Origin: Woeseiaceae bacterium | GTDB lineage: Bacteria; Pseudomonadota; Gammaproteobacteria; Steroidobacterales; Woeseiaceae | Assembly (NCBI GenBank): GCA_013138675.1 | Contig: WTCH01000311.1 | Location: forward strand, 1-32,720 | Direction: 5' to 3' | DNA length: 32,720 nt | Shown: positions 17,250-21,738 of the stretch, piece after piece | Numbering within the stretch: position 1 is the first letter of the stretch | How the letters are laid out: every line of letters begins with the position of its first letter | Notes under the pieces: generated by a model | The model's database searches: none | Seen by the model: the letters and a program-made list of their open reading frames with translations, nothing else | Told to the model about the DNA's origin: nothing | Program-made: the position numbers and the translations under genes

Positions 17250-17612
17250 ATCAGGAGCCGGCAATAAGCCGGGTTCTGTCAGGGACAATCATTCATCTGG
17301 GACAGCCGTCGCCGACTGCCTCTAGCAACCTACCCGGGAGTCCGCTCGGAACCGGCGGCGGGCCGAAGCCCTACTCCCCTATTTGGTCTTGCTCCAGGCG
17401 GGGTTTACCGTGCCGCGAGCTGTTACCAGTCGCGCGGTGCGCTCTTACCGCACCTTTTCACCCTTACCGACCAAGGTCGGCGGTATATTTTCTGTGGCAC
17501 TTTCCATGGGCTCACACCCTCCAGGCGTTACCTGGCGCCTTGTCCGAAGGAGCCCGGACTTTCCTCTGCAGACCAGAGGTCTACAGCGATTGCCTGGCCG
17601 ACTCCTGATTTC
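17250..17612 (-). ncRNA. rnpB: RNase P RNA (bacterial class A)
   Basis: Minus strand contains the conserved 5' core AGAGGAAAGTCCGGGCTCC, the internal GGTGAAAAGGTGCGGTAAGAGCGCACCGCG, CAAATAGGGG, and 3' GACAGAACCCGGCTTATTG; the ends pair as helix P1. Exact mature ends not determined. Confidence 0.95.
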
Positions 17613-18486: not shown

Positions 18487-20457
18487 ATGAAGAAACTCAG
18501 ACATCGTGCCCGTGAACGAAGCTCCGTGGCAAGCTTTGCGCTGCTGCTGGTGTTGTCACTGTTGCTCAGCGCTTGCGCAACGACCGGTGGCCCCGGCGGC
18601 GTGCCGGGCGAAAGCCGTGCCGAACGGCTGGCCGCGAATGGCGATCATGATGACGCTGCTCGGGTATATCTTGGTCTCGCGGCCGAAGCCAGTGAGCTGG
18701 AGCGTGACCGCCTGACCTTGCTTGCCGTGGAGCAGTGGCTTGATGCCGGCGACGCCGCTCGAGCCCGCAATACGTTTCGCGCTGTACCGATGCCGGGCAG
18801 CTCCGAACTCCGCCGGCTTTGGAACACAAACTCGGCCGCATTGTCGCTGTATGCAGGCGACGCCGACAAAGCACTCGATATTCTCGAGGCCATGAGTCGC
18901 CAGCCGCTATCCGAGCGACATCGACTACGCGTCGAAGCGCTGCGTGCCGATGCCTGGATTCAGAAAGGTGATCCGGCTCGCGCTGTCGAGCTCATGATGC
19001 ACCGCGAGATCTGGTTGCGTGATCGGCGCAGCATCGAGCAGAACCGGCAGAGACTCTGGCAGGGTCTGCTCGTCAGCAACCCGCAGCAGCTTCGCCAAAG
19101 CGCACAGCTCGCACTTGACCCTGACGTCCGTGGCTGGCTTGAAATCGGCTCGCTCGCAGCCTCAACCGGCCAGCAGGGTATCGGGTGGGTTAACGGCGCC
19201 GTGCGCTGGCGCGACACGCATCCGACACACCCTGCCTTTTCGATCATTGATGACCTCCAGCTGCCAGATGAACTGTCTCTCGACTACCCGCGGCAGGTTG
19301 CATTGCTGCTGCCGTTGTCGGGACGGACCGCACCCGCAGGGCACGCAGTACAAAATGGTTTTCTCGGCGCCTATTTCTCGACGGTCGCCGGTCTCGATGA
19401 ACATCAGACCATTCGTGTCTACGACGTTGTTAGTGAAGGTGGGGCCAGCGCCGCGTATGCGACGGCCGTTGCTGATGGCGCCGAGTTCGTCATTGGACCG
19501 TTGTTGCGTACCAGCGTCACCGAACTTGCGAATGACATTCTCGTTCCGGTACCGGTATTGACGTTGAATTATCTTCCGGACGACTCGCTTGCCCCGCCAG
19601 GCCTGTATCAATTTGCGCTCGCCCCCGAAGACGAAGCGCGTTCGGCAGCCGGGCGCGCGCTTGCCGACGGGCACACACATGCGGTCGCACTGGTACCAAA
19701 TAACGAGTGGGGACGCCGTGTCCTGGGGAGTTTTGATGCTGAACTCAAGGCGCTCGGTGGCACGCTCCTCGACTACCGGATGTACACGCCAGGTATCCAG
19801 GACTTCTCGAATACGATTGAGGACCTTATGGCCCTCTCCGGAAGCGTGCGTCGATACCAGCGTCTGCGAGCAAACATCGGTGGGCCACTGCAGTTCGATC
19901 CGCGCCGCCGACAGGACAGCGAATTTATTTTCCTGGCCGCTGATGCGCCCGCAGGTCGCCTGCTCAAGTCACAGCTGAAGTTTCATTACTCGGGCGATTT
20001 ACCGGTTTATTCAACATCGTCGATCAACGCCCTGGACGGCCGTTCCAATTCCGACCTGAACGGCATTATGTTTGCTGACATACCGTGGATTATCGCGCCG
20101 CAAAGCTGGATCGAGAATCTGCCACCACTGTATAACGAGTACTGGCCCGGCGAACGCCGTCTCGGCCGCCTTCACGCCATGGGCTATGACGCCTACCAGT
20201 TGATCGCCGCACTCTTCGCTGCCCGTACGGGGCCAATGCAGGAGATAGATGGCGCGACAGGCAAGCTGTACCTCGATCCCGATGGTCGTGTGCGCCGCAA
20301 ACTGGCGTGGGCACAGTTCCAGAGAGGTGAGGCGATGGCCTTGCCCGAGATCGAACCCGCCGGTGGCCCGATTCTGGACATTAGCGACGACGCCGAGTTG
20401 ATGAGGCCCGATGCCGCGGACAAAGAAGCGTGGCCCGAGCCGACACGCGAACTCTAG
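18487..20457 (+). CDS. lpoA: LpoA/LppC-family outer-membrane lipoprotein activator of PBP1A
   Basis: Lipoprotein signal (SFALLLVLSLLLSAC-A), N-terminal TPR-like region and C-terminal periplasmic-binding-like fold (QVALLLPLSGRTAPAGHAVQNGFLGAY); divergent from rsmI and upstream of yraN as usual. Supplied ORF begins at TTG 18481; ATG at 18487 preferred. Confidence 0.9.
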   Translation: MKKLRHRARERSSVASFALLLVLSLLLSACATTGGPGGVPGESRAERLAANGDHDDAARVYLGLAAEASELERDRLTLLAVEQWLDAGDAARARNTFRAVPMPGSSELRRLWNTNSAALSLYAGDADKALDILEAMSRQPLSERHRLRVEALRADAWIQKGDPARAVELMMHREIWLRDRRSIEQNRQRLWQGLLVSNPQQLRQSAQLALDPDVRGWLEIGSLAASTGQQGIGWVNGAVRWRDTHPTHPAFSIIDDLQLPDELSLDYPRQVALLLPLSGRTAPAGHAVQNGFLGAYFSTVAGLDEHQTIRVYDVVSEGGASAAYATAVADGAEFVIGPLLRTSVTELANDILVPVPVLTLNYLPDDSLAPPGLYQFALAPEDEARSAAGRALADGHTHAVALVPNNEWGRRVLGSFDAELKALGGTLLDYRMYTPGIQDFSNTIEDLMALSGSVRRYQRLRANIGGPLQFDPRRRQDSEFIFLAADAPAGRLLKSQLKFHYSGDLPVYSTSSINALDGRSNSDLNGIMFADIPWIIAPQSWIENLPPLYNEYWPGERRLGRLHAMGYDAYQLIAALFAARTGPMQEIDGATGKLYLDPDGRVRRKLAWAQFQRGEAMALPEIEPAGGPILDISDDAELMRPDAADKEAWPEPTREL

Positions 20458-20816
20458 GATCTGATGCCGAACGACTTGCCGGGGCATTCCTGAAACGTCA
20501 GGGCCTGGTGCCAGTCACGACGAACTTCCGCTGCCGTCTTGGCGAGATCGACCTGATCGCAAGAGATGGTGATGCCATCGTATTCGTCGAAGTACGCTAT
20601 CGCGGCTATAACCGCTTTTCGCGGGCCGGCCTGACAGTCGACATTCACAAGCAACGCAAGTTGATTCGCACGGCGGCGTTGTTCACAGCGATGCGACCGA
20701 AGTATGCCAATAGCGTAATGCGCTTCGACGTCGTCGCGATCGACGCAGACGAACATGGCGAGAAGACCATCGACTGGATAAAGGACGCGTTCCGCCCCAC
20801 CGACTCCCGCCTGTAG
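20430..20816 (+). CDS. yraN: UPF0102/YraN family putative endonuclease-like protein
   Basis: GSDAERLAGAFLKRQGLVPVTTNFRCRLGEIDLIARDGDAIVFVEVRYR matches the YraN fold (restriction-endonuclease-like E-x-D...F-V-E-V-R/K). GTG start overlaps the lpoA 3' end by 28 bp. Confidence 0.93.
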   Translation: MARADTRTLGSDAERLAGAFLKRQGLVPVTTNFRCRLGEIDLIARDGDAIVFVEVRYRGYNRFSRAGLTVDIHKQRKLIRTAALFTAMRPKYANSVMRFDVVAIDADEHGEKTIDWIKDAFRPTDSRL

Positions 20817-20869
20817 GAGCCCGGCCCACCGGCCAATAACGATATCTATACGACACGTCACTCGGGGAT

Positions 20870-21225
20870 GTCACACAGGTCCGGGCACCGGGTACGCGCC
20901 CTCAAGTCAGTCACACAGGACCGAAGCCGGCATCTTTGTTGCCGGTATGGCTCCCTGCGGTCCGCTTTACTACCGTCAACAAAGATCCCGCCCTCGGCCT
21001 CCCCGGTCATCGCAGAGGTCCGGGCACGGGGTACGCGCGCGAACGTCGTGCGCAGCGCCGCGACAAATTCGCTGCAAGCGGATTTGGACGCACGCAGTGC
21101 GCCCGTAGGGCCAGCGACCGCTGGTCACCCCGGACGCCAAAGCAAGCGGAGAACGATGTGAGCGAGCCATGGATGGCGAGCGAGGTTAAGTGAGGGCGCG
21201 TACCGCGGGTCCGGGCCTGTGTGAC
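20870..21225. repeat. MITE-like non-coding element with ~38-bp imperfect terminal inverted repeats
   Basis: Left end GTCACACAGGTCCGGGCACCGGGTACGCGCCCTCAAGT (20870-20907); reverse complement of right end (21188-21225) GTCACACAGGCCCGGACCCGCGGTACGCGCCCTCACTT; 31/38 identical by manual alignment. No convincing ORF inside. Confidence 0.7.
20929..20989. repeat. Stem-loop inside the 20870-21225 element
   Basis: GGCATCTTTGTTGCCGGTA (20929-20947) and TACCGTCAACAAAGATCCC (20971-20989) are inverted with 17/19 matches, 23-nt loop. Confidence 0.75.
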
Positions 21226-21228
21226 GAG

Positions 21229-21639
21229 TTACTTGACGACTTTGAGGTGCGGACGCGAGCGCGTCGTTTCGATTTCGGCGTCGGCCTCGGCCTCGCTGAC
21301 TTTTTGTTCAGTTGTGTCAGCGTCGTGCGAGAAGATCATGCCCTGCCCCGTTTCTCGCGCATAGATACCGAGAACCGACTTCATCGGTACCCAGACATCA
21401 AACGGCACACCCGAAAACCGGGCACGGAAGCTGACCGAATCATTGGTCAACTTGAGATTATGTGCCGCCGTCTCGCTGATATTGAGAATGATTTTGCCGT
21501 CTTTGACGTGTTCTCTTGGAACGCTGACACCATCAACTGAAGCATCCACCACAATATGCGGCGTATGACTGTTATCGCCCATCCACTCATGCATGGCGCG
21601 AATCAGGTACGGTCTTTTTGAACGGCTTGGGTTACTCAA
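21229..21639 (-). CDS. sspB: ClpXP protease specificity-enhancing factor SspB
   Basis: KRPYLIRAMHEWMGDNSHTPHIVVDA ... FDVWVPMKSVLGIYARETGQGMIF plus C-terminal ClpX-binding tail RPHLKVVK. Start uncertain: TTG at 21639 (LSNPSRSKRPYLIRA) preferred over the supplied ATG at 21738. Confidence 0.92.
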   Translation of the reverse strand: MSNPSRSKRPYLIRAMHEWMGDNSHTPHIVVDASVDGVSVPREHVKDGKIILNISETAAHNLKLTNDSVSFRARFSGVPFDVWVPMKSVLGIYARETGQGMIFSHDADTTEQKVSEAEADAEIETTRSRPHLKVVK

Positions 21640-21719
21640 CGCGGACGAGTCCCGAATATCTCTCAATACTTTCCCAAGCTTATCATTGTTTGCAGCTTCT
21701 GCAGGAAAAGTGACATAAC

Positions 21720-21733
21720 GTGGGATAACCCAC
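21720..21733 (-). promoter_or_regulatory. Hairpin in the sspA-sspB gap
   Basis: Minus strand GTGGG-TTAT-CCCAC shortly after the sspA stop codon. Confidence 0.4.
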
Positions 21734-21738
21734 ATCAA

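Follow-up and report, generated by a model that had tools for sequence, protein, structure and literature searches.

What is the sequence that separates the convergent genes yraN and sspB in a draft Woeseiaceae genome (2.83 Mb, 387 contigs, 91% complete), and how did it come to be there? The window analysed here is one contig of that genome (C270), 32,720 nt in length. The upstream gene of the pair, yraN (UPF0102; 20430..20816, plus strand), is an open reading frame with homologues in relatives that share its C-terminus. The downstream gene, sspB, for the ClpXP adaptor (21229..21738, minus strand), was likewise identified by its open reading frame and homologues. The first-pass annotation had described the segment 20870–21225 as a MITE-like element with long terminal inverted repeats (TIRs), ending just after an undamaged sspB. 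It placed the gene correctly: the stop codon is at 21229–21231, and the C-terminal tail of SspB (..RPHLKVVK) is unbroken. Elsewhere in the window, a bacterial class A RNase P RNA occurs at 17250–17605 on the minus strand (330 bits).

The inverted repeat itself is present: its arms, 20870–20904 and 21191–21225, pair at 30 of 35 positions (rather than 31 of 38, as first counted), and the TIR similarity is significant, with a score of 20 against 8.1 ± 1.1 (mean ± sd; maximum 12) in 100 dinucleotide shuffles. The arms are not, however, the ends of the element. When the copies in the same genome are aligned, the interior is the same, the flanks are unrelated and GTAG-type REPs are outermost. In the window, a degenerate GTAG-type REP, GTAGGAGCCCGGCCCACCGGCC, occupies 20813..20834 (plus strand), the position of the left REP in complete copies, and the TAG stop codon of yraN (20814–20816) belongs to its GTAG; GTAG REPs often provide the stop codon of a neighbouring gene (PMC3733652). 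It is followed by the right-end module in inverted form (CTATACGACACGTCACTCGGG..GTCACACAGGTCCGGGCACCGGGTACGCGCCCTCA; 20847..20904, minus strand) and by the second GTCACACAGGACCG repeat (20910..20923, plus strand), the left inner end, common to other copies. Comparison with copy C199, the right end of which is 85% identical to the left module over 20845–20903, identifies the supposed left TIR, contained in this module, as an inverted copy of the right-end module. The latter (21191..21225, plus strand; the supposed right TIR) forms the other half of the inverted pair, and the shared sequence runs on to about 21227. Complete copies extend 8–10 nt past the right-end module and then into a REP; the window copy lacks this right REP and ends at the stop codon of sspB.

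Three complete copies (C39, C171 and C173) are bounded by the GTAGGAGCCCG..CGGGCGACC REP and its inverse, complete composites being some 310–380 bp long. The REP pattern GTAGGAGCCCGNC occurs at 28 sites in the genome versus three for the reversed control, and is also found alone. These repeats have the hallmarks of GTAG REPs, namely a GTAG end, a GC-rich palindrome (hairpin GCCCGC..GCGGGC) and many copies, the window's own copy being degenerate. The three complete copies present the inverted REP pair as a unit, as in REPINs and BIMEs, a unit that presumably moves and of which the window copy lacks the right REP. The tip of one inner hairpin, T1 (see below), occurs exactly eight times in the genome, several times at contig ends, so that the count of about eight insertions is a minimum rather than an exact figure.

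The same junction in relatives is instructive. Seven of them (L069, L073, L074, L075, L077, L084 and L092) have an empty site, with 0–19 bp between yraN and sspB, and five have other sequence there, several of them repeat-like: a single T2 hairpin in L071, a different hairpin in L068, REP-like remnants in L082 and L083, and another palindrome with a GTAG REP in L144. The relative L067, the SspB of which is 85% identical, shares the right end GACCTGTGCGACGAG next to sspB, at which point its contig ends; judged from this shared sequence, the insertion is probably older than the split between the two lineages. In many Woeseiaceae (e.g., L076 and L078), a putative diaA/gmhA-like gene, named from its sequence, lies between yraN and sspB; it is absent at the junction in the window and in several closer relatives. 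With at least eight genomic copies, unrelated flanks and empty sites in seven relatives, the earlier idea of a non-autonomous, dispersed, mobile intergenic repeat is supported; the segment is neither single-copy nor retained at this site across distant relatives.

The MITE-like label thus holds in kind, with other boundaries. That the element would be a classical MITE belonging to a DDE transposon with GTCACACAGG TIRs, as its long TIR-like arms might suggest, is nevertheless extremely unlikely: in other copies the GTCACACAGG motif lies internal to the REP ends, the left arm is the extra inverted module just described, and neither a transposon nor a transposase with GTCACACAGG ends was found among the copies in the own genome. 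By eye, none of the three complete copies shows a target duplication, in line with the first-pass annotation, which had seen none.

The REP ends point to another kind of enzyme. The own genome has three Y1-transposase matches, on contigs C93, C299 and, partially, C210. On C93 and C299, the tyrosine-transposase (RAYT) genes have GTAG REPs of sister subtypes on either side; the partial one has one such REP upstream. The RAYT-flanking subtypes are GTAGGAGCGGC and GTAGGAGGGCC, the first of which also stands at one end of one composite; the right end of the hybrid copy C276 carries the subtype that flanks the C93 gene. A RAYT with exactly the GTAGGAGCCCG subtype was not found in this draft, 91% complete genome. 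The substrate of a RAYT is a single-stranded REP cleaved at a CT dinucleotide, and CT precedes GTAG in the window (20811–20812) and in many copies, not all. The RAYT genes with GTAG REPs, together with C276, make RAYT mobilisation of the composite plausible at the level of sequence, and such mobilisation would fit the absence of a visible target duplication. In relative L152, a REP of the subtype of the C299 RAYT (1501–1513 of the locus, minus strand) lies within a GTAGGAGCCCG REP, apparently a REP-into-REP insertion.

We consider it likely that 20813–21227 is a non-autonomous, REP-bounded (BIME/REPIN-like) composite that entered the yraN–sspB junction, was moved by a RAYT and holds captured inner hairpins. 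A RAYT-type HUH/Y1 enzyme would have acted on the single-stranded REP ends, although REP ends could also be acquired independently of mobility. Like the GTAG REPs of described RAYT REPtrons (PMC3733652, PMC8266576, PMC2817692), those found here combine the GTAG tag with a short palindrome, sit at gene 3′ ends and convergent junctions, supply a stop codon through their TAG and share the genome with RAYT genes that have GTAG REPs; unlike them, they frame a long interior of unrelated hairpin families and lack a RAYT of exactly their own subtype. With REPINs and BIMEs (PMC3116915), the composite shares the inverted REP pair moving as a unit, the mosaic make-up and the solo REPs elsewhere, but those consist of two REPs and a short spacer, whereas here long hairpins are nested within some 310–380 bp.

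Several hairpin families are nested in the interior: T1 and T3 form an inverted pair of long hairpins, and a smaller one, T4, is nested in T3. No Rfam family matches the segment at gathering score. T1 (20921..20997; probable folding strand, minus) has 27-nt arms that are 85% complementary and a conserved tip, ATGGCTCCCTGCGGTCCGCTTTA on the plus strand, at 20947–20969; its DNA fold has z = −7.7 on the minus and −3.7 on the plus strand. T1 and the related T2 combine a fixed 23-nt tip with stems that are variable yet covarying, their tips differing at positions 10 and 16. A mini-hairpin within the tip (CC-GNA-GG / GC-GNA-GC), suggested by the compensating nature of these two differences, was considered and dropped, folding of the isolated tip giving it no support. 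The tip pattern ATGGCTCNCTNCGNTNCGCTTTA was detected in 28 of the 60 relatives, with as many as 53 matches in a single genome and none for the control, and in class-wide samples (274 genomes for T1, 369 for T2) matches are confined to the window's own genus; the family seems to be restricted to the Woeseiaceae lineage. Phage and plasmid collections yielded no informative relative; the sole T-tip match among viral contigs is L294 5067–5089 (minus strand).

Stems have a median length of 27 bp over 132 copies, of which 118 reach at least 18 bp; when arms from different copies are combined, only 2.6% reach 18. In genome G026, 23 and 26 of the 30 pairs of two stem types are changed on both sides, and covariation is 0.558 and 0.593, versus 0.155 and 0.163 when shuffled and no more than 0.132 when slid. 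Stem changes at orthologous sites frequently come with compensation (both of the two changes between L209 and L212, for example), and a tip of type T1 may stand where another genome has T2. One such switch is seen between rpsJ and rplC of the S10 operon, where T hairpins, mostly doublets, occur in L051 (464–1111), L053, L208, L210 and L291; the genes were identified in L051 and inferred from matching flanks in the other four. The hairpin nearest rpsJ contains bulges.

Long, nearly perfect stems and many two-sided changes would also be expected if arm complementarity were maintained by palindrome correction, that is, by templated replication errors, in the absence of selection, the repeats being functionless. 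Under such correction, no excess of G.T over A.C would be expected on one strand. Counting non-Watson–Crick pairs from the eleventh pair outward from the loop, we found on the listed strand of T1/T2 68 A.C versus 5 G.T and 50 pyrimidine–pyrimidine versus 5 purine–purine pairs; on the opposite, TAAAGC..GAGCCAT strand, this amounts to 68 G.T/U versus 5 A.C, and the corresponding strand of T3 has 12 G.T to 0 A.C. As the hairpin copies are related, nominal P values for this asymmetry are too strong. With ratios of 68:5 and 12:0, we regard palindrome correction as very unlikely. Since G.T/U and purine–purine, the better-tolerated kinds, prevail on the TAAAGC..GAGCCAT strand, that strand is probably the one that folds, as RNA or as single-stranded DNA.

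The 63 T1/T2 elements are located between convergent genes in 40 cases, tandem genes in 19 and divergent genes in 4, and never inside genes, genes being called by a simple codon-usage score; the 136 other gene pairs at the same loci are convergent in 8 cases, tandem in 107 and divergent in 21. A similar placement has been published for REPs (PMC3733652). The polarity of doublets is nearly constant, +− in 12 of 14 multi-hairpin elements at convergent sites and in 7 of 7 at tandem sites. At tandem sites, no preferred sense relative to the upstream genes was found (8 vs. 4), which argues against a simple mRNA role; the folding strand as mRNA sense was discarded as a candidate for this lack of preference.

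These data bear on the proposal, also made in the first-pass annotation, that the segment is a local functional RNA or bidirectional terminator, yraN and sspB needing a shared 3′ end and the repeat origin being incidental. The enrichment between convergent genes, the compensated stem changes at orthologous loci and the other hairpins at the yraN–sspB junction of several relatives are compatible with it. Against it, the seven relatives with almost no spacer have no hairpin there, the one-strand mismatch bias does not suit a terminator working on both strands, tandem copies have no preferred sense, and no intrinsic terminator (GC hairpin, then T-run) exists within 20813–21227, the only two terminator-like sites (stem and T-run) being located in sspB, at 21246 and 21287. 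As an account of the whole segment, we consider the proposal unlikely. For the hairpins of the composite, pairing that is kept after insertion in other genomes suggests a probable additional function, local to the 3′ ends of genes.

T3 (21007..21227; plus strand, also its probable folding strand) has arms at 21007–21038 and 21196–21227 and a conserved core at 21040–21194, with the tip motif AAAGC..GAGCCAT at 21139–21170. In most copies the core measures 91 nt, as against 155 nt in the window; this 91-nt form is found in several species, on differing stems. Within the window's core lies the 64-nt T4 (21064..21127, plus strand), which would have been inserted there after the hairpins were captured. 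T4 (CAAA..TTTGGACGCACGNNGTGCGCCC..GTCAA) is also seen in L045, L047, L352, L355 and L362, often at the T-loop of a tRNA, between a preceding GTTCGA and a following AATC/TCAATCCC and next to a tRNA gene, intact or partial. Other copies lie within T2 and T3 tips; from these sites, it would seem to enter loops after CGA.

T1, T2 and T3 are probably a separate, lineage-specific palindromic family that was captured between the REPs and of which the folded TAAAGC..GAGCCAT strand would be recognised through its conserved tip. In Pseudomonas, TIRYT-linked TIR repeats and GTAG-plus-stem-loop composites (PMC3733652) resemble our composite in joining a degenerate GTAG to unrelated stem-loops and in their dispersed dimers, but T tips stand beside none of the Y1-transposase loci examined. 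The T hairpins were rejected as TIRYT repeats, palindromes flanking a Y1 transposase gene, none of 31 Y1_Tnp loci having a T tip in the flanking sequence examined, and their copy number shows no relation to Y1-transposase presence (Spearman 0.02). CGTC-tagged REPs (PMC3733652) are also dispersed palindromes without an associated transposase, mostly dimers and partly between convergent genes, but their published stems are 8–9 bp with loops of 4–5 nt, unlike the 27-bp median stem and fixed 23-nt tip of the T hairpins. A published description of the T hairpins was not found in the open-access literature. Tentatively, they could constitute a distinct palindromic class, with a fixed 23-nt tip, a variable complementary stem and one-strand folding, spread in Woeseiaceae by a non-RAYT enzyme and serving as a landing site for T4.

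With the composite, the REP/REPIN picture comes to include a lineage represented here by environmental genomes alone. More unusual is the hairpin family, in that a conserved tip is separated from a free stem. Its mismatch bias suggests the folding strand from sequence alone, independently of the direction of neighbouring genes, and the family provides a direct handle on whether such hairpins are kept up as RNA, as single-stranded DNA or by copying errors.
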